DNA of 62,496 nucleotides from Bdellovibrionales bacterium (GTDB lineage Bacteria > Bdellovibrionota > UBA1018 > CAIMNF01): NCBI GenBank assembly GCA_947462765.1, contig CANHQK010000010.1, positions 1 through 62,496 of the forward strand, written 5' to 3'. Below, one piece after another: positions 42,017-52,168 of this stretch (the first letter of the stretch is position 1; the number at the start of each line of letters is the position of its first letter). Both the position numbers and the translations under genes were made by a program. Under the pieces are notes generated by a model, which was given only the letters and a program-made list of their open reading frames with translations, was not told the DNA's origin and made no database searches.

Positions 42017-43351
42017 TCAGGGGTGCCTGATCTTCTTTTCCTTCCGGTATGCCCGGACCAGTTCCGTACCCAGTACGGCTGACGCGATGATTGCCAAGAC
42101 GGTCAGAAGCGGGACCAGCGGTCGCTGGTCCAACCAGAACTCTTTTGGTGATTCCACGATGCTTTTGATCGGTGTCTGGACCAGGTTGGTGCAAATCATG
42201 GTCTGCCCGATCGCGCCGATCAGATTGAACACCACTGAGTAGGTCAGGGCTCCCCCAAGCAGTACCCTTTGCAGAGCATTTCCGGACCAGGGCAACAATC
42301 CAATGCAAAGGAATGGTAAAAGAGGCATCAGGTACCGAGCTCCGAACTGACAATGCCCTTCGGTACCCATGTTGAAAAGATAAGCCAGATGAATGAGAAC
42401 AAACGCGAAACCAAGATTTCGAATCTTGTGTAGATGAGCCGGAAGGAACAGAATACCGATCAGCCCGAGAAGAACAACGGGCATGGTATGAACCATGGAC
42501 ATGTTGCTCATCGGACTCAGGTACTCGTTCCAGCGGGTCAGAAGCAGTGTCCATGAAGGAGCGAAGAAAGTATTCGAGTAATTCCCGGCCATGTTGGCCT
42601 GGATGAGCGGGTTTCCAAAATAGTGAAAATTATAGATCGCTGTGGGAAGATATCCGATCAGGAAACCGACACAATACAGGGCTCCACTTCTCCATCCCAG
42701 GTGAAAGATCGAGAAAATCAGACAAGTGGCGACCAAAAGGGCAGGAAGCATCGAGAAAAAAAGCACACCGGCCAGTAGGGCGCCCGCCAGCACAATGGAG
42801 CGGACTCTTCTGCCGGGATGAAGCTCGAGAAGTGACATCGTTGAAAGTCCGAGCATGCAGGTAGCGAGGACATCATGGTGGGGTGTCCCGGTATAGGGAA
42901 ATAAATTGGTGCCAAAACCGAGAGCCAGGGTCACCAGAATCGCCTGCCCGCGACCGGTTCCAAGAGTCCTGACGAAAGCGAAAAATCTAACAATGAGTAA
43001 AGCCGTCAGAAGTCCGGAGGTCCACCAGGTAGTCCAAGCGGAGAGGAAGTCCCTGGATTTTTCGAAGCTGATGCCGAAGGGACGGATGACCGAGTAGGGG
43101 ATGGCGGCCGCAAAAAAAACTCCGGGCTGTTTCGCCGGAAGGAGACGCCCGTTGAAGGTGAATGAGTCGAGACTTGAATTGAACTCGGGAACTTTCGAAT
43201 TCCCTATCGCGAAAGTCCCCCTATCGACAATCGATTCCGCAACTGCTTGAGCGAGGGAATAGGTCCGGAGCTCGGAGGCGTTGATCATCGCTCCATAAAC
43301 CATCCAGACCAGCAGAAAGGCCCATATCCTCAAGGTGTTCTGAGATGCCAT
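42017..43351 (-). CDS. Polytopic membrane protein, glycosyltransferase (GT39/ArnT-like) type
   Basis: A 444-aa protein with about eleven hydrophobic segments. It opens NTLRIWAFLLVWMVYGAMIN and has a first periplasmic loop with VDRGTFAIGNSKVPEFN and LPAKQPGVFFAAAIPYSVI. This pattern (large first loop with acidic/polar residues, then many helices) is shared by GT39/GT83 lipid-linked sugar transferases. The specific activity cannot be assigned. It overlaps the upstream aldehyde dehydrogenase gene by 22 bases, so it is the last gene of the amino-alcohol operon, though no metabolic link is obvious. Confidence 0.72.
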   Translation of the reverse strand: MASQNTLRIWAFLLVWMVYGAMINASELRTYSLAQAVAESIVDRGTFAIGNSKVPEFNSSLDSFTFNGRLLPAKQPGVFFAAAIPYSVIRPFGISFEKSRDFLSAWTTWWTSGLLTALLIVRFFAFVRTLGTGRGQAILVTLALGFGTNLFPYTGTPHHDVLATCMLGLSTMSLLELHPGRRVRSIVLAGALLAGVLFFSMLPALLVATCLIFSIFHLGWRSGALYCVGFLIGYLPTAIYNFHYFGNPLIQANMAGNYSNTFFAPSWTLLLTRWNEYLSPMSNMSMVHTMPVVLLGLIGILFLPAHLHKIRNLGFAFVLIHLAYLFNMGTEGHCQFGARYLMPLLPFLCIGLLPWSGNALQRVLLGGALTYSVVFNLIGAIGQTMICTNLVQTPIKSIVESPKEFWLDQRPLVPLLTVLAIIASAVLGTELVRAYRKEKKIRHP

Positions 43352-44697
43352 CCGCGAGGTCTCACAAAGCTGAGAATTCCGAGCCACGAAAGGGTGGTTC
43401 CGAGCCCCGAGTGCTTGCGGCCGGCCCAAGGAAGGTAGGGACTGACCCGGTCACAGCAGTTCAGGTAGGATGTCCCGGTGTCGATCCGACCCAGAATGCT
43501 CCGTCCACGGGATTCGTTCCGGCTGTACACTGCGGCGGTGAGCCCGTACTCGCAGTCCTGCATGAGACGGACGGCTTCCTCGTCATCCCGGACTTTCATC
43601 ACTCCGATGACTGGCCCGAAGCTCTCCTCCATCATGATCCGCATCGAATGGTCGACATCCACCATCACTGTGGGTTCGAAATACGCGCCCGACCCTGGAA
43701 TACGCTTCCCGCCGCAAAGGATCCTGCCCCCTTTTGCCACGGCATCTGCGATCTGTTCCTCGAGAAAAGCGAGCTGTGCCGGGCGGGTCAATGACCCTTG
43801 CTGAGTCCCCGCTTCGAGGGGATTTCCCACCTTGAGGGACCGAACTTCGGCCTCGAAGTGTTTCATGAATTCATCGTAGATTTTTTCATGAACATAGACG
43901 CGTTCGACCGCACAGCAACTCTGACCGTTATTGTAAAAACAACCTTCGGCGACAGCTCCAGCCACCTTTTTGAGATCGTCGACCTCATCCGTCACGTAAA
44001 GCGGATCCTTGCCTCCGAGCTCAAGACCGACCGGCACCAGCTTTGAAGCAACTCTTTCGGCAATGTGCTGACCGGTGCGGTAGCTCCCTGTGAAGAAGTA
44101 TCCATCAATGGGTAAGTCAAGCAGGGCCTCCCCCGCAATTCGGTCTCCGATGATCGGGATGAATACATCCTCGGGGACGCCGGCTTCATGGAGCAGTCGG
44201 GCGATGTGAAGGCCGGTGAGGGTTGCGAACTCAGAGGGTTTGTAGAGCACCGCATTGCCCGCCAGGAGAGCTGGAACATAAACGTTCACTCCGACATGGT
44301 AGGGGTAGTTCCACGCTGAAATATTCGCAATCACACCGAGTGGATCAAGACTGATCTCTTCACGGGTGTTGCCTTCGGTACGGATGGATTGGGGCGATAG
44401 CCACTTCTCCGATTGTTCGAGAAAAAACCGGATCCTCCCACGAGCCCCCTGGACCTCGTTTTTCGACTCCTGCAGGGGCTTTCCAACCTCGAGAGAAAGG
44501 TCCCGGGCGAGGCGCTCGGCATCCCGATCGAGCAGGTCGTGGTAGCGCCGGATTACGGCCAGACGTTCCCCGAGAGCCTTCGCATTCCAAGCGATCTGAG
44601 CGATTCTGGCACGGTCCAAAGCACTTGAGATTTCTGCAGGCGAGGTTTCCCGAACTTCTTTCAGGGATTCTCCGGTAGCCGGATTGATGAGTTTCAT
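43330..44697 (-). CDS. Aldehyde dehydrogenase of the gamma-glutamyl amine operon
   Basis: A 455-aa NAD(P)-dependent aldehyde dehydrogenase. The NAD site FFTGSYRTGQHIAERV, the catalytic-type Glu in VGLELGGKDPLYVT, the nucleophile Cys in NNGQSCCAVERVYV and the late EESFGPVIGVMKV are all present. Proposed role here: oxidise gamma-glutamyl-aminoacetaldehyde to gamma-glutamylglycine. It could act on other aldehydes. The start overlaps the end of the gamma-glutamyl hydrolase gene by 4 bases and the end overlaps the next gene, so it is co-translated with the operon. Confidence 0.9.
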   Translation of the reverse strand: MKLINPATGESLKEVRETSPAEISSALDRARIAQIAWNAKALGERLAVIRRYHDLLDRDAERLARDLSLEVGKPLQESKNEVQGARGRIRFFLEQSEKWLSPQSIRTEGNTREEISLDPLGVIANISAWNYPYHVGVNVYVPALLAGNAVLYKPSEFATLTGLHIARLLHEAGVPEDVFIPIIGDRIAGEALLDLPIDGYFFTGSYRTGQHIAERVASKLVPVGLELGGKDPLYVTDEVDDLKKVAGAVAEGCFYNNGQSCCAVERVYVHEKIYDEFMKHFEAEVRSLKVGNPLEAGTQQGSLTRPAQLAFLEEQIADAVAKGGRILCGGKRIPGSGAYFEPTVMVDVDHSMRIMMEESFGPVIGVMKVRDDEEAVRLMQDCEYGLTAAVYSRNESRGRSILGRIDTGTSYLNCCDRVSPYLPWAGRKHSGLGTTLSWLGILSFVRPRGWHLRTP

Positions 44698-45440
44698 GGT
44701 CGGATCTCCTTCAAAAAACGATCGAGCAAGGGCTCGGGGCTGATGACATGCCCAGCGAGGGTGTGTGAGAACTCTGGATGCCACTGCACGCCCTGGAATG
44801 ATACGGGCTCGGGCCCTTCATAATGAAAGGCCTCAATGAGTCCGTCGTCCGGGCAATGTGCGTCGACTTTCAGGTGTTTCCCAAGTGTCTTCACTCCCTG
44901 ATGGTGGACGCTGTTCACCCGGAAACCTTGCACTCCGTAAATCCTGCCCAAGAGACTCCCCTCAGGGCACACCACCGCGTGATTCACGCGGTCATAGGTC
45001 TCGGCATTTCGATGCTCGACCGGGCTGGAAGTCTCTAGGTTCAGATCCTGATACAAAGTGCCCCCGAAAAAAACATTCATCAGCTGAAAGCCCCGGCAGA
45101 TCGCCAAGACCGGCTTACGGTTCCGGAATGCCCAGTCCATCAAGGTCAACTCATAACGGTCTCGATGCGGATCCCCCGGCCATCTTCCATTTTCGATCGG
45201 CGTCGCACCGTAGGTCCCGGGAGCGATGTCCGCCCCCCCTTGGAAGACGAATCCGTCCATTTGTTCCAGGTAGGGGATGAGACGGTCTCCGGGTAAATCT
45301 GGAATCAGGATCGGCATCACGCCTTCACGGGCCAGCCAGCGGCTCATGTCATGTTCGAAGTACGAGAGCTGCTTGTGCCCGAACACAGCACGCGACGGAT
45401 CAGGGTACATGAAGCAAGCGGAGACGCCGATCCGGATCAT
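44694..45440 (-). CDS. Gamma-glutamyl-amide hydrolase (PuuD-like, class I amidotransferase fold)
   Basis: A 248-aa enzyme of the peptidase C26 family. Nucleophile Cys in KPVLAICRGFQLMNVFFGG (about residue 114), His/Glu pair in GVQWHPEFSHT (about 223), and the N-terminal FVFQGGADIAP (about 67) are diagnostic. Family members such as PuuD split gamma-glutamyl-GABA into glutamate and GABA. In this operon the expected substrate is gamma-glutamylglycine or a similar end product, which regenerates glutamate. It overlaps both the aldehyde dehydrogenase and alcohol dehydrogenase genes by 4 bases. Confidence 0.9.
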   Translation of the reverse strand: MIRIGVSACFMYPDPSRAVFGHKQLSYFEHDMSRWLAREGVMPILIPDLPGDRLIPYLEQMDGFVFQGGADIAPGTYGATPIENGRWPGDPHRDRYELTLMDWAFRNRKPVLAICRGFQLMNVFFGGTLYQDLNLETSSPVEHRNAETYDRVNHAVVCPEGSLLGRIYGVQGFRVNSVHHQGVKTLGKHLKVDAHCPDDGLIEAFHYEGPEPVSFQGVQWHPEFSHTLAGHVISPEPLLDRFLKEIRP

Positions 45441-46594
45441 GCCAGTGCCTTCAGGTAAAGAGATGCAAAATCCTCTTTTTTGACGGTTCGCTCGTTCGAT
45501 CCGTGGCAAGGATCGGCTATCGCCAAGGAAGAGAGTTTTTCGACATGTTCGGGAGTCACTCCAAGAAGGGCGAGGGAGGCAGGAATCCCGAGTTTGGCAT
45601 TCATCTCATGGAGCCAATTAATGAACCCCTCGGCCGACTCGTCTTCCAGCCCGATCGTACGAGCAATAGTCTTCATCCTGGGGGCCGAGACCGGCGCGTT
45701 GAATTCCATTCCGTAAGGAATCATCACCGCATTAGCCAGACCGTGGTGCATGTCTACCAGGGTAGAGAGGGGATGTGCCAGGGAGTGAACGATGCCAAGT
45801 CCCTTTTGGAAGGCGGTGGCACCCATGAGTGCCCCCATCATCATTTTGGAACGTGACTCCAGGTCCGGTGCGTGTGTGGCACATTCGAGTGAGTCAGCGA
45901 TCAGGCGAATGCCTTCCAGGGCGACCCCGTCACAGAGGGGTGAGAACCCTTTTGCCAAATAAGCCTCCACGCAGTGAGTGAGAGCATCCATCCCGGTGGT
46001 GGCAGTGACGAAGGGAGGAAGACCCATGGTCAGGGCCGGATCGGCAAAGACCTTGCGAGCCATCAGTCGCGGAGAGAAAAGGATCTTTTTTTCATGGGTC
46101 ACATCATCTGCAATGACCGTCGAGCGCCCGACCTCGGAGCCGGTCCCGGAAGTGGTGGGAACCGTGACAAAGTAGGGAACGCGTTCAGTGACATGCCGGT
46201 CTCCACCGATCGCATCGTCGTATTCAAACAGATCGAGCGGGTGGTGGACCTTGAGGGCGATCGCACGGGCCACATCCATCGAAGCCCCGCCCCCGAAACC
46301 GACAATGCTGTCACAACCCGAGGCCAAGTAAAGATCCGAGCCCTTCAGTACATTCGACTTGACCGGGTTCTTTGCGATTTCAGAGAAAACCGTCACTTTC
46401 AGGCCCGACTTTTTGATCAGACCGGTGACTTGGTCGAAGACCGGTAGTTTGACCAGTCCCGGATCGGAGACCACCAGCACATGGCTCAGCTTCTCTTGGG
46501 CGAGATGCGGGCCGAGCTCGTCGATTACTCCGTTTCCAAAGCGGATCGAGGTCGGGAAATTGAAATTCATTCTTTGATTGAAGTCGTAGGCCAT
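45437..46594 (-). CDS. Iron-containing alcohol dehydrogenase
   Basis: A 385-aa group III alcohol dehydrogenase. The cofactor region has FGGGASMDVARAIALK and PTTSGTGSEVGRSTVI; metal ligands are Asp/His in TGMDALTHCVEAYL (about residues 196-200) and His in GIVHSLAHPLSTLVDMHHGL (about 264-280). Proposed role: oxidise the hydroxyl of gamma-glutamyl-ethanolamide to the aldehyde. An alcohol dehydrogenase in place of the amine oxidase (PuuB) of the putrescine route points to an amino-alcohol substrate. It lies 10 bases after the ligase gene and overlaps the hydrolase by 4 bases. Confidence 0.92.
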   Translation of the reverse strand: MAYDFNQRMNFNFPTSIRFGNGVIDELGPHLAQEKLSHVLVVSDPGLVKLPVFDQVTGLIKKSGLKVTVFSEIAKNPVKSNVLKGSDLYLASGCDSIVGFGGGASMDVARAIALKVHHPLDLFEYDDAIGGDRHVTERVPYFVTVPTTSGTGSEVGRSTVIADDVTHEKKILFSPRLMARKVFADPALTMGLPPFVTATTGMDALTHCVEAYLAKGFSPLCDGVALEGIRLIADSLECATHAPDLESRSKMMMGALMGATAFQKGLGIVHSLAHPLSTLVDMHHGLANAVMIPYGMEFNAPVSAPRMKTIARTIGLEDESAEGFINWLHEMNAKLGIPASLALLGVTPEHVEKLSSLAIADPCHGSNERTVKKEDFASLYLKALA

Positions 46595-46604
46595 GGTTGG
46601 TTCC

Positions 46605-47945
46605 TCAAATGATTTCGAAGTAGCGTTTGTATTCCCAGTCGGTCACCGCTTTGGCGTGTTGGCGCCATTCCCATTCGCGGGTTCCGGCAAAGTGTTTCAC
46701 GAAAGTTTCGCCGAACAGCTCTTTTGCGATCTCGGAGTTCTTGAAGCGGGCGGTGGCCTCCCAGAGATTCGGAGGAAGAACTCCGTTCGAGGTATTCCGG
46801 TACCCGTTGCCTTCGGTGGCAGGGACGGTCAGCTTCAGCCCTTTTTGAATCCCGTACAATCCGGATGCGAGTGAAGCGGCATGAGCCAGATAGGGGTTGG
46901 CATCACTTCCGACTACCCGAAGCTCGATTCGGGTGGACTTGGATCCGCCAGGGAGGGCTCGAATGGCGACCGTCCGGTTGTCGATGCCCCAAGTCAGTGT
47001 GGTCGGAGCCCAAGCTCCCTCGACCAAGCGCTTGTAAGAGTTAATCGTCGGAGCGTAGAGGGGAAGGATTTCGGGCATGCAATGGAGGAGTCCCGCCAGG
47101 TAGCTTTCCATGAGCGGACTCATTTTGTTCCGGCCCTTCTCATCGAAGAAGAGATTGGTTTTTCCGTCCGAGAGGCTCTGATGCAAGTGCCCCGAGCAAC
47201 CGGGGAGCTTTTCGCTGATTTTCGCCATGAAGGTCGGCATGATACCGTACTTGAGTCCGATCTCCTTCGCCCCTGACTTGAAAAGAACCGCGCGGTCCGC
47301 TGACTCGAGAATATCCGCGTAGAGTATCGCTGCTTCAAGCACACCCGGGCCCGTCTCGGTATGTAGCCCTTCGAGCGGAACCCCGAATTGGAACATCAGA
47401 TCGTACAGATCGTTCAAGTAGTCCGAGTTTCGTGACATCCGGAGCAATGAATACCCGAACATTCCCGGAGTGAGCGGGGTCGGATCACTGAAGTTTTTTG
47501 CATGGAGGGCCTCGGGGGTCTCGCGGAAATTGAACCACTCGAACTCCTGACCGAAGTTTGCATGAAAACCGGCTTGCTCGGCACGGGATTTGACCTTCTT
47601 CAGGAGATTCCGGGGGCAGATGTCTAGATCGAAATCCCCGAGGAAAAACGGCACATCCTCATCCCAGGGAACTTTACGGAAGGTTTGCGGATCGAGACGG
47701 GCCATCGCATCGGGATAGCCGGTGTGCCAGCCGGTATACTCCATGCCCTCGTAAGCCACATCCCCGGAGTCCCATCCGAAGACCACATTGCAGAATCCGA
47801 AGCCACCCTCGAGGCTACCGAGGAACTTGTCTTTGTGGAGGTATTTACCACGCAAGATCCCGTCGATATCCGTAATGGCGACTTTGACCTTGGGGTTGGC
47901 GGAGGTTTTGACCTCCTCCGTGATCCGTTCTTTGCTGAGTTTCAT
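46605..47945 (-). CDS. Glutamine synthetase-like gamma-glutamyl amine ligase
   Basis: A 446-aa GS-fold ligase. Metal and ATP residues are kept: Glu in FGQEFEWFNF (about residue 130), HTETGPGVLEAAI (about 195), GHLHQSLSDG, NRTVAIRALPGG and RIELRVVGSDANPYLAHAAS. It lacks the Tyr adenylylation loop, and the N-terminal region (VVFGWDSGDVAYEGMEYTGW) is unlike the ammonia-pocket 'FDGSS' of true GlnA. It thus belongs with PuuA/GlnA4-type enzymes that join glutamate to amines. With an ethanolamine-type permease next door, ethanolamine is the likely acceptor. It overlaps the permease end by 4 bases. Confidence 0.9.
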   Translation of the reverse strand: MKLSKERITEEVKTSANPKVKVAITDIDGILRGKYLHKDKFLGSLEGGFGFCNVVFGWDSGDVAYEGMEYTGWHTGYPDAMARLDPQTFRKVPWDEDVPFFLGDFDLDICPRNLLKKVKSRAEQAGFHANFGQEFEWFNFRETPEALHAKNFSDPTPLTPGMFGYSLLRMSRNSDYLNDLYDLMFQFGVPLEGLHTETGPGVLEAAILYADILESADRAVLFKSGAKEIGLKYGIMPTFMAKISEKLPGCSGHLHQSLSDGKTNLFFDEKGRNKMSPLMESYLAGLLHCMPEILPLYAPTINSYKRLVEGAWAPTTLTWGIDNRTVAIRALPGGSKSTRIELRVVGSDANPYLAHAASLASGLYGIQKGLKLTVPATEGNGYRNTSNGVLPPNLWEATARFKNSEIAKELFGETFVKHFAGTREWEWRQHAKAVTDWEYKRYFEII

Positions 47946-49279
47946 GCAGTCTCCTTATGAGCTGAAATTCGGGTGCGTGAATGGAACCAGAACGCGCCGG
48001 TCATCAGGAGCGCTAGGTAGATCAGACCCGGTCGCGGGTTGAAGTAAAACATAGAAAAAATACTGATGATCGCAATTCCGAGAGCCAGGCTCTGGGATAC
48101 CGGATAAAACGGGGCGCGGAAAGGGCGAACCAGTCCGGGTTCCTGTTTCCGGAGCTTGAAAAAGGAGGCAAGAGAGGCGAGGTAAAGAGTGATCGCGCCG
48201 AAACAGGAAATGGTGATGAGTTCGGAGGTTTTACCCGAGATCAGAGCGAGGACGCCGATGATCGCATTCAGGATGAGTGCGGAGGCAGGAGTCTTGAACT
48301 TCGGATGGGCACGTCCGAGAAATCCGGGAAGGTGGCCGTTCCGCCCGAGCTCGAAGGTGACCCGACCGGCAGCCAGAATCAGCCCGTGAAATGAGGCGAT
48401 CAGCCCGAAAAGCCCCACAGTCAGCAGCAGATGGTACAGGAAATGCCCCTTACCTACCACCTGCGACAGCGCAAGGGGGAGTGGAGAGTCCGAGGTCTCC
48501 GGCATTCCTTGAACCGGAAAAACAATCGCTTCCCAGCCGGCGACTCCCACAGAAGAGACGAAAGTCAGTCCACATAGAACGACCAGTGTGACAATCGAGC
48601 TCCCGAATCCGATCCGTATGTTCCGATCCGGATGAATGGTCTCTTCCGCCACGTTCGCCAGCCCCTCAATTCCAAGAAAGAACCAGATCGCGAAAGGAAT
48701 GGAGGCGAATACCCCGGACCAACCTTGAGGCAGTGCGTTCCGGGTGAGGTGGTCAGTTTGGAAATGCGGTAGGGTCACTCCTGCAAAAATCAGGAGTTCC
48801 AGTACCGCAAAGACCGTGATGAACAATTCAAAACGGGCTGCAGCTTTCACTCCGACCAGATTGAGTCCGGTGAAGAGCAGGAACGCCGTCATTGCGATTC
48901 CCAGAACCGGAAGCGACGGAAAGAACTCATGAAAATAGGCACCGATTGCAAAGGAGATGGCCGGCGGGGCAAACAGAAACTCGATCCACTGTGCGGTACC
49001 GGTCAGGATGCCGATTCCCGGACCGAATGCCCGCGCAGCATAGTCGTACGCGCCTCCCGCTCTAGGAATCGCGCAGGCGAGCTCGGCATAGGCGAATACG
49101 AAGAACACATACATGAGGGCGATGAAAAAGGTGGCAACCGCGAGTCCGAGGGTGCCACCGGCTGGTAAACCGAGGTTCCATCCGAAATACATCCCCGAGA
49201 TGACATAACCGACTCCGAGCCCCCAGAGCATGAGCGGGCCGAGAGAGCGTTCGAGAGTGGCATCAGTCCTGTGTTCCAT
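47942..49279 (-). CDS. APC-family permease, ethanolamine-permease-like
   Basis: A 445-aa transporter with about twelve helices. The start (LGPLMLWGLGVGYVISGMYF, then GWNLGLPAGGTLGL) and the segments FAYAELACAIPRAGGAYDYA and IEFLFAPPAISFAIGAYFHE closely resemble the ethanolamine permease branch of the amino acid-polyamine-organocation superfamily as I know it. Substrate identity is inferred. It is the first gene of the operon with the ligase, alcohol dehydrogenase, hydrolase and aldehyde dehydrogenase. Confidence 0.88.
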   Translation of the reverse strand: MEHRTDATLERSLGPLMLWGLGVGYVISGMYFGWNLGLPAGGTLGLAVATFFIALMYVFFVFAYAELACAIPRAGGAYDYAARAFGPGIGILTGTAQWIEFLFAPPAISFAIGAYFHEFFPSLPVLGIAMTAFLLFTGLNLVGVKAAARFELFITVFAVLELLIFAGVTLPHFQTDHLTRNALPQGWSGVFASIPFAIWFFLGIEGLANVAEETIHPDRNIRIGFGSSIVTLVVLCGLTFVSSVGVAGWEAIVFPVQGMPETSDSPLPLALSQVVGKGHFLYHLLLTVGLFGLIASFHGLILAAGRVTFELGRNGHLPGFLGRAHPKFKTPASALILNAIIGVLALISGKTSELITISCFGAITLYLASLASFFKLRKQEPGLVRPFRAPFYPVSQSLALGIAIISIFSMFYFNPRPGLIYLALLMTGAFWFHSRTRISAHKETA

Positions 49280-50251: not shown

Positions 50252-51254
50252 TTTTCACCTCGGCTGACAGCAGAAGATCCAGAAACGAGAGTTCGGGAAG
50301 AACCGATCCGACTGAGCCGTCTCCTTTGAAATCTGAACCTTTGACGTGTTCTTTCAGGGCGGTCGCCAGCATTCCCATCGCGCACAAGTCGTGCACATCG
50401 CGGTTGCCGCTCATCCAACCCAGAAAAGGAGCGCCCCAGATGGCCATGGCGCGATCGAGGGGCGCAAAACCCGGAACCATCTGGGCGAGAAAGGCCGCGA
50501 TCATTCCACTGTGGATTCCGAAGGTTTGTTTTTCCATTGCGAGACGGACCGGCTCGGTGTGTTTCAAGGAAGAAAGTTTTTTGTAAAACTCGGGAGCCTC
50601 GCCCGATTTGATCAAGATGAGGGAAACCTGGGCAAGTTGCCTCAGGTAGCAGGTGACCGGAACCTGCCTGTCGAGAGAGAGTTTCTTTTTGAACTTGGAA
50701 AGCTTGAGACTCAGCAGTCCTTGCTCGGTACCGCGGGTAAAGGCCTGGTTGATCGGCTCGTCGAGCTTGATTCCGCCCAGATTCATCACGGGACTCCGGT
50801 GGAGAAAGAGCAGGTAGTCGAAAAGGAAGCCGGCTGCAAAAACATGGTCTTTGTAACGGCTCTCCTCTCCGAACTGATTCCGGGCTTCATTGGCGTATTT
50901 GAGAAGCTCGCCCGGTTTTCCCGGAAATTTCCCGGTAGTGAAATCGAGTTCGAGATCCTTGATCTTGAGAACCTGGTTGATCAGGCCCAGTAAAAGCCAG
51001 TGTCGTGTGGCGTTAGTGGTGTAAAACCGGATGTGCTCTTCGAGTGGAACCTCCCGATCCTGGGGGTTCAGTGATTTGATCAAAGTCTGAAAGGGGGGAA
51101 TGAACTGGGGGTGCCGGTTGAAATGATTGATCAGGTGAGAGACGCGGTCTTCCACATTGTCAGGTTCAAAAAGAAGGGGTGCGACGTCGGTTGCGGCGAA
51201 GGGGCCGATGATTTTCTGGAACAGCTCCTCGATCAGCGGCAGAGCCTTACTCAC
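50235..51254 (-). CDS. HDOD-like helical protein, 339 aa
   Basis: An all-helical protein I cannot place firmly. The layout resembles HDOD signalling domains: HFNRHPQFIPPFQTLIKSLN near the start, KDHVFAAGFLFDYLLFLHR where HDOD has its 'AGLLHDIG' helix, and FGIHSGMIAAFLAQMVPGFA like the late 'H..vGa.La..W' helix. Catalytic HD residues are absent. It begins with GTG overlapping the psd stop by 4 bases and overlaps the STAS-like gene. HDOD proteins are known in motility and stress signalling; a role here is inference. Confidence 0.6.
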   Translation of the reverse strand: MSKALPLIEELFQKIIGPFAATDVAPLLFEPDNVEDRVSHLINHFNRHPQFIPPFQTLIKSLNPQDREVPLEEHIRFYTTNATRHWLLLGLINQVLKIKDLELDFTTGKFPGKPGELLKYANEARNQFGEESRYKDHVFAAGFLFDYLLFLHRSPVMNLGGIKLDEPINQAFTRGTEQGLLSLKLSKFKKKLSLDRQVPVTCYLRQLAQVSLILIKSGEAPEFYKKLSSLKHTEPVRLAMEKQTFGIHSGMIAAFLAQMVPGFAPLDRAMAIWGAPFLGWMSGNRDVHDLCAMGMLATALKEHVKGSDFKGDGSVGSVLPELSFLDLLLSAEVKNEAKV

Positions 51255-52168
51255 GCGTCGGGGCGCTCACCCAACGCCTGTCCGAGTGGAACCCAGGTCT
51301 CCAGGTTCCGGGCGCTGTTCTCGACAAGATCCCGGCTGAGTTTCAATTTTCCTTTTTGGACAAGCCAGATCACGGTAGAGCCTCCAAATAAAAAGTAACC
51401 TTTTTCAGCTCCACGGGCAAATTTTACAGGCATCGCATCGAGCGATGAGTAGGCACTCTGGACGATCTTGCCCACTCCGAGTGCGCCCACTTCGATCATG
51501 GCCACCTTTCCGAAGACGGGATTTTGCAAGATGGCGACTTGTCTCTCGTTCTTGAGGAATACTTTTGGTTCGGCTTCGAACGCGGCGGGGTTCACCGAGT
51601 GGTATTCTCCGCTGATCCGGTAATGTCGAACCAGTTCTCCTTCGAACGGGAAGTGGAAGCGATGATAATCCACGGGGCAAAGTCGGGCCAGAATGAGGGC
51701 GCCTTCCTCGAATTCTTTTGCGATTTCAGCGTCCTGCAACAGGACTCCGAGATCGATCTCGATTCCTTTGACCGGGAAGGTCTGTCTCGGTTTCAGCGAT
51801 TCGAAGACCAGGTAGCGGGCCTCAGCGCCTGCGCAAAAAACTCCGGGATCGGATCCGAACGGTCTTTTGCCAGGTTTGAATTTCCGAATGAAGAATTGAT
51901 TGAAGTTCGAGTAATCGGACTTTTCGAACTCTTCCATGTCGACTTCATATTTTTCGATGAACTCGTCAATTTTCGAACGGCTCAGGGGAGAGTCTTCGAA
52001 AACACCGAAAATCCTGCTCACCCATTGTTTCGATAACACATGGCGGGTCAGCCATTTTCCCGGAGGTGTCCGATAGGCCCAGTGAAGCCAGGCCTCTCCG
52101 TAGACTTTCTCAGTTTCGACGCGTTGGCGGGTTCGATGGTAGTAACGGATCACGGATGATGTCTCCAC
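51251..52168 (-). CDS. psd: Phosphatidylserine decarboxylase
   Basis: A 305-aa inner-membrane-associated enzyme making phosphatidylethanolamine. The self-cleavage site that yields the pyruvoyl cofactor is FGGSTVIWLVQKGK (about residue 266). The charge-relay His is in PVDYHRFHFPFEGE (about 167). The start region (VIRYYHRTRQRVETEKVYGE) is typical of the PSD type found in Chlamydia- and Bdellovibrio-like genomes. It starts at GTG 52168 inside the Rsm22 gene, overlapping by 59 bases, and is coupled to the HDOD-like gene. GTG 52150 is an alternative start. Confidence 0.93.
   Translation of the reverse strand: METSSVIRYYHRTRQRVETEKVYGEAWLHWAYRTPPGKWLTRHVLSKQWVSRIFGVFEDSPLSRSKIDEFIEKYEVDMEEFEKSDYSNFNQFFIRKFKPGKRPFGSDPGVFCAGAEARYLVFESLKPRQTFPVKGIEIDLGVLLQDAEIAKEFEEGALILARLCPVDYHRFHFPFEGELVRHYRISGEYHSVNPAAFEAEPKVFLKNERQVAILQNPVFGKVAMIEVGALGVGKIVQSAYSSLDAMPVKFARGAEKGYFLFGGSTVIWLVQKGKLKLSRDLVENSARNLETWVPLGQALGERPDA

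Follow-up and report, generated by a model that had tools for sequence, protein, structure and literature searches.

Which compound is consumed by a bacterium that keeps a permease, a glutamine-synthetase-like ligase, an alcohol dehydrogenase, a hydrolase and an aldehyde dehydrogenase in one tight row of genes? The question is raised by positions 43330-49279 (minus strand) of a 62,496-nucleotide stretch of a Bdellovibrionales bacterium, hereafter the window, which is contig 10 of a host genome of 2.33 Mb in 97 contigs (estimated 91% complete). From our analysis, it is very probable, on the evidence of gene families and gene context, that this five-gene operon serves the use of ethanolamine, a component of membrane lipids, by a gamma-glutamyl route that would require neither coenzyme B12 nor a microcompartment. 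In order of transcription the genes are:

47942..49279, minus strand: permease of the APC superfamily, 445 amino acids; PF13520; TIGR00908 (ethanolamine permease) 422.4 bits against a cut-off of 381.75.
46605..47945, minus strand: putative glutamine-synthetase-like gamma-glutamyl amide ligase, 446 amino acids; PF00120, 311 bits.
45437..46594, minus strand: Fe-dependent alcohol dehydrogenase (Fe-ADH), proposed gamma-glutamylethanolamide dehydrogenase, 385 amino acids; PF00465 and PF25137.
44694..45440, minus strand: PuuD-like class-C26 gamma-glutamyl hydrolase, proposed gamma-glutamylglycine hydrolase, 248 amino acids; PF07722 (Peptidase_C26), 187 bits.
43330..44697, minus strand: aldehyde dehydrogenase (ALDH), proposed gamma-glutamylaminoacetaldehyde dehydrogenase, 455 amino acids; PF00171, 424 bits.

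All five open reading frames (ORFs) are free of internal stops and match their families far above chance, and the order, place and strand given for them in a preliminary description of the window stand. Read from the sequence along the direction of transcription, the junctions are a 4-base overlap, a 10-base gap and two further 4-base overlaps, and the genes are presumably co-transcribed. The ORF list starts the hydrolase at TTG 45509 and the ALDH at GTG 44784; ATG 45440 and ATG 44697 are the likelier starts because they overlap the stops of the ADH and hydrolase genes, respectively, by 4 bases. A chance origin of the five-gene order is ruled out by its occurrence in other genomes.

In the proposed pathway, the permease would import ethanolamine and the ligase would couple it to glutamate, spending ATP; the Fe-ADH, presumably acting in the oxidative direction, would convert the hydroxyl to an aldehyde, the ALDH would yield gamma-glutamylglycine, and the C26 hydrolase would free glycine and regenerate glutamate. 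Glycine may then enter the glycine cleavage system, the P protein of which (GcvP) is encoded in all 12 sampled genomes of the genus, the host genome included. Family matches and retained active-site residues support the enzyme assignments and pathway logic of the preliminary description. The Asp/His motifs that we take to be the metal ligands of Fe-ADHs are conserved in alignments with two solved members of the family, and residues that are presumably catalytic are invariant in five of five aligned sequences both for the hydrolase (Cys115, His221 and Glu223; E. coli PuuD included) and for the ALDH (Cys261, Glu226 and Asn130; E. coli PuuC included). A PDB search with the ALDH at E 1e-90, too strict a limit, returned nothing.

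Its scores and its flap residue set the ligase apart from plain glutamine synthetases (GS). It lies under the cut-off of all four NCBIfam models that it matched, among them GS models (206.7 against 469.6 bits and 196.5 against 429 bits) and GGputSyn, gamma-glutamylputrescine synthetase (163 against 650 bits). Twelve metal-, glutamate- and ATP-site positions are conserved in 103 of 103 ligase relatives; two of them are Arg residues that we presume to belong to these sites. The other ten are named in section 12 of PMC6529630. At the position of the GS flap Glu (E. coli GlnA Glu328, mature E327), the alignment has Trp in all 103 relatives (Trp312 in the window ligase) and Tyr in PuuA, and PMC6529630 gives Phe331 of GlnA4 and Trp296 of PauA7 there. 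The Trp speaks against ammonia as the substrate and names no particular amine. GS Asp50 stands opposite Glu66 of the window ligase (Asp in 81/103 and Glu in 16/103 relatives) and, because an acidic residue is retained, this position does not separate GS from the ligase kind. GS Tyr179 falls at a gap in the alignment. The host genome has one other PF00120 gene, encoding 758 amino acids, and therefore the housekeeping role need not fall to the window ligase.

We traced the distribution of the ligase, the permease and EutB, which with EutC forms a B12-dependent lyase that yields acetaldehyde and ammonia from ethanolamine, in 58 genomes of relatives, 12 of them in the genus of the window; the 58 contain all 46 genomes of a class-wide set with completeness of at least 85. 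Within the genus, the ligase was found in nine genomes and EutB in two (G006 and G010), both without the ligase and both with EutC beside EutB, and a permease over the TIGR00908 cut-off occurred in 11 genomes, exactly these nine plus two. EutB was not found in the host genome at its estimated completeness of 91%. The EutB-linked permeases of G006 and G010 score 475 and 486 bits on TIGR00908, and the permease is adjacent to the Eut genes in one of the two genomes and ∼5.6 kb off in the other. Across the 58 genomes, the ligase was present at an identity of at least 53% in 20 (a 21st, G045, has a 35% partial match only) and EutB in four (G006, G010, G032 and G045), none of which is among the 20. 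The permease was over the cut-off in 17 genomes: 14 with the ligase (adjacent in 13; on different contigs in G046), two with EutBC and one (G019) with neither. The ligase or EutB was thus present in 16/17 genomes with the permease versus 8/41 without it (Fisher p 1.3e-7, kinship ignored). This co-distribution, together with the exclusion of EutBC within the genus, is indirect support for ethanolamine as the substrate, and the operon seems to take the place that the classical ethanolamine enzyme has in sister species. Ethanolamine, proposed as the substrate in the preliminary description, gains from the gene context in this way, while its identity is still one that we infer.

Three further observations concern these genomes. 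G005, of the same genus and 93% complete, lacks the ligase, EutB and a permease over the TIGR00908 cut-off, a sign that ethanolamine use may have been lost or is lacking there. Between EutC and the permease of G010, one of the genomes with EutBC, lie an ALDH-family and an RnfC/Nuo51-like protein (L129:12697-15488). Neither the region retrieved around the lone permease of G019 nor that around the one of G046 held a match to the ligase, ADH, hydrolase or ALDH.

Using the window proteins as queries, we scored gene order at 103 loci: 18 from relatives' genomes, five from plasmids and 80 named loci, the best 80 of 591 confirmed matches, a set that describes close relatives and not prevalence. Matches had to reach tblastn E 1e-8 over at least 30% of the query, on the same strand and within 7 kb; the counts are lower bounds because of contig ends and divergent hydrolases, and neither order nor tree counts include L047 (the GS of G045 that matches only partially, at 35%) or L045 (truncated at a contig end). 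The search for the same five-gene order that the preliminary description had proposed gave permease-ligase-ADH-hydrolase-ALDH at 28/103 loci (8/8 same-genus, 3/10 same-order, 14/25 Bacteroidota and 3/42 Pseudomonadota loci), and one further Bacteroidota locus has the full order with its ALDH match in two pieces. Another 16/103 carry ligase-ADH-hydrolase-ALDH without the permease, 17/103 carry ligase-ALDH-ADH (five with the permease, 12 without), and 26/103 are partial or differently ordered. Among the permeases from other loci, 12/14 exceed the TIGR00908 cut-off, and those of L085 and L103, scored as tblastn stretches, reach 352 and 356 bits against 382. In a betaproteobacterial ligase-ADH-hydrolase-ALDH operon (L076), the TIGR00908 permease scores 624 bits, is 50% identical to EutBC-linked permeases and clusters with them (SH-aLRT 96; its row was flagged long) in a permease tree which, like our ligase tree, is a quick tree with SH-aLRT support only and a long outgroup.

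Other arrangements occur as well. Vibrio penaeicida (L125) has the TRAP genes DctQ, DctM and DctP, then ligase-ALDH-ADH, then a class-I glutamine amidotransferase (PF00117); its DctP matches PDB entries 4uab and 4xf5 at 563 bits, which we take to be one binding protein sequence of Chromohalobacter salexigens with ethanolamine and amino-propanol bound, respectively. A Legionella lytica plasmid has the ligase, ALDH, Fe-ADH and a GMP-synthase-annotated gene consecutively. As a separate recurring gene set, four Bacteroidota/Balneolota ligase relatives (L072:9410-11307, L088:9498-11419, L090:9365-11266 and L094:4273-6168) have no ADH or ALDH nearby and are followed by a protein of ∼350 amino acids (no Pfam match, 3/4 tested) and a HAD-family hydrolase (3/4 tested). 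Two alphaproteobacterial plasmids (L025:5780-16001 and L024:6480-14462) carry a GS-like ligase, an aminotransferase, a P1-family peptidase and a spermidine/putrescine-type ABC transporter, L025 additionally an N-formylglutamate amidohydrolase and an ALDH; these loci apparently encode another gamma-glutamyl amine pathway.

The chemistry of the pathway and a one-operon set in Gram-negative bacteria are already in print, and the novelty that the preliminary description had seen in such a set falls away. For Phaeobacter sp. MED193, a gamma-glutamyl ethanolamine operon has been described whose proteins are raised on phosphorylethanolamine and for whose binding protein ethanolamine binding was demonstrated; close relatives of its genes make up the set established, as cited there, in C. 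salexigens and Agrobacterium tumefaciens (Science Advances 2023, PMC10132767). By locus-tag number, its order is TRAP-ligase-ALDH-ADH, common to L125, with the amidohydrolase ahead of the TRAP genes (PMC10132767). As far as these systems are described, the window resembles them in having ligase, ALDH, alcohol dehydrogenase and hydrolase in one operon with glycine as the proposed product. The C. salexigens set is listed as PF00120, PF00465, PF00171 and PF05013 (2022 review, PMC9397018), and the window Fe-ADH belongs to the same dehydrogenase family, PF00465. The window departs from the Phaeobacter type in its APC permease in place of TRAP and its ligase-ADH-hydrolase-ALDH in place of ligase-ALDH-ADH order, and from the C. 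salexigens list in its C26 hydrolase (PF07722/PF00117) in place of PF05013. PF05013 need not define the pathway, because the published drawing of the Streptomyces cluster shows a glutamine amidotransferase and the Vibrio set contains a PF00117 protein. The gene set is thus a mosaic of an APC permease, an Fe-ADH and a class-C26 hydrolase.

In Streptomyces coelicolor, GlnA4 makes gamma-glutamylethanolamide (Krysenko et al. 2019, PMC6529630), as the preliminary description had it. The same paper proposes the dehydrogenase SCO1611, the ALDH SCO1612 and the amidohydrolase SCO1615 (cluster SCO1610-1615) for the later steps; SCO1615 is of the formylglutamate amidohydrolase family in its text, and its figure legend shows a glutamine amidotransferase in the cluster. 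By this description, the cluster is like the window in its GS-like ligase, ALDH and glutamine amidotransferase, with an ethanolamine permease in other Streptomyces, and unlike it in a short-chain dehydrogenase in place of the Fe-ADH, its own regulator EpuRI and the lack of the permease gene in S. coelicolor. No paper on the route in Bdellovibrio, Bacteriovorax or Bacteroidetes was among the matches listed in the open-licence literature, searched by title and start of abstract.

Several observations weigh against ethanolamine use by this operon. Taken alone, the exclusion of ligase and EutB carries little weight (p 0.045 in the genus and 0.17 in the 58 genomes, kinship ignored). A permease over the cut-off is missing in 6/20 ligase genomes (G014, G021, G025, G039, G043 and G048) and in 2/4 EutB genomes (G032 and G045), and G019 has the permease with neither enzyme in its genome. 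The window permease exceeds the TIGR00908 cut-off, yet it ranks 14th of the 17 that do so in the 58 genomes and shares no more than 43-44% identity with the EutBC-linked permeases, and its 'ethanolamine permease' label is a homology-derived name. The ligase, ADH, hydrolase and ALDH are under every NCBIfam cut-off listed (for the ALDH, 25 of 44 matches). The flap Trp does not single out one amine, because a relative annotated ipuC is among the 103 that carry it, and it is hence no pointer to ethanolamine. The ligase stands alone at 15/103 loci (none of the other four genes was found nearby on its strand, although some of these loci are truncated at contig ends), so that this pathway may not be the role of every family member. 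The hydrolase gene lies at opposite ends in L125 and in Phaeobacter as described, so that the gene order of these two operons is not the same. A consensus scan found no promoter-like site versus 2.6 expected by chance.

Could the same chemistry act on another primary amino alcohol (e.g., 2-amino-1-propanol (alaninol), 3-amino-1-propanol or serinol), so that alanine, beta-alanine or serine is released? The enzymes leave the chain length unfixed, a relative of the ligase (∼41% identical) in Paenarthrobacter aurescens carries the annotation ipuC (gamma-glutamylisopropylamide synthetase), and the binding protein of L125 resembles a sequence with two PDB entries, one of which (4xf5) we take to be amino-propanol-bound. 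The ipuC cluster of P. aurescens TC1 shares a GS-like ligase, an ALDH and a glutamine amidotransferase with the window; it differs in its amine and in the P450, ferredoxin and short-chain dehydrogenase alongside, and no P450 occurs among the ten window ORFs scanned. With the ethanolamine-named permease model over its cut-off and the operon and EutBC mutually exclusive within the genus, we consider another amino alcohol unlikely. The preliminary description had also named 1-amino-2-propanol, which on chemical reasoning fits less well because a secondary alcohol would become a ketone and leave the ALDH without a role.

A putrescine-type (Puu) or general polyamine pathway would share the glutamate-tag logic, and the ligase, hydrolase, ALDH and permease are homologous to E. 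coli PuuA (31%), PuuD (35% over 198 amino acids), PuuC (34%) and PuuP (25%). E. coli Puu, the substrate of which is putrescine, has the amine oxidase PuuB where the window has an alcohol dehydrogenase, and this dehydrogenase would have no substrate there. As the preliminary description had noticed, PuuB is absent from the operon: E. coli PuuB has no tblastn match at E 1e-3 in the window, to which this search was confined. Together with a ligase far below the GGputSyn cut-off and a permease over that of TIGR00908, this makes a Puu pathway highly improbable. That the ligase is an ordinary GS and the other genes an unrelated alcohol-use cluster is hardly credible: the PF00120 match and the acidic Glu66 would fit, and against them stand the scores far under the GS cut-offs, the invariant flap Trp, the separate 758-residue protein and the company of the same genes that the ligase keeps across phyla. 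For ethanolamine use, the EutBC route has the same proposed substrate as the operon and, in two genomes of the genus, the same permease family.

The nearest named matches of the ligase (among the best 80 of 591 confirmed matches) are from two metagenome-assembled genomes of Bacteriovoracaceae, 76% and 74% identical, which fall among the window-genus ligases in an 11-row set (SH-aLRT 98). Judged by this one gene family, the window very probably stems from Bacteriovoracaceae (phylum Bdellovibrionota), and its host would be an uncultured bacterium akin to predatory ones. Bacteroidota account for 25 of the 39 rows in the clade that holds the window-genus ligases (SH-aLRT 99), nine same-order ligases join 17 betaproteobacterial ligases in a 26-row clade (SH-aLRT 95), and one more same-order ligase, L046, is unplaced. 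Ligases of the L125 type, whose identity to the window ligase is 45-47%, fall in a different clade. The host order therefore carries two ligase lines, which suggests transfer between phyla, for which paralogy and loss would be the alternative.

Two neighbours of the operon were considered and set aside. The gene at 42017-43351 shares bases with the end of the ALDH gene, and its product is of membrane type and matches the LA_3751/LA_3752 glycosyltransferase model only weakly (35 bits against a cut-off of 200); the gene is downstream of the operon only in the relative L028 and hence was not counted. The phosphatidylserine decarboxylase (PSD, 51251-52168) belongs to a block of Rsm22, PSD and two more genes; this block adjoins the operon in L028-L030, the three closest relatives, and is absent from the stretches fetched for the other five same-genus loci (L031-L035); PSD is therefore treated as a chance neighbour. 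A terminator scan found nine sites versus 8.4 expected by chance.

What is new here is the evidence from gene context that indirectly points to the substrate; the known route takes a recurrent five-gene form. Our analysis adds Bdellovibrionota and Bacteroidota to the range of a documented ethanolamine route that is seldom annotated, and it offers a context-based argument for the substrate where annotation models are silent for four of the five proteins. Cultured hosts such as Pedobacter, Chitinophaga and Sphingobacterium are at hand for testing the five-gene set; Pedobacter soli and Chitinophaga arvensicola are two examples with an identical gene order. Conceivably, though we hold this only tentatively and at somewhat less than even odds, the gamma-glutamyl operon and EutBC can take each other's place in the ethanolamine use of Bacteriovoracia, being swapped horizontally while the permease family is retained, and the five-gene form may be a widespread B12-free route by which Bacteroidota and Bacteriovoracia live on the membrane lipid of lysed or captured cells.

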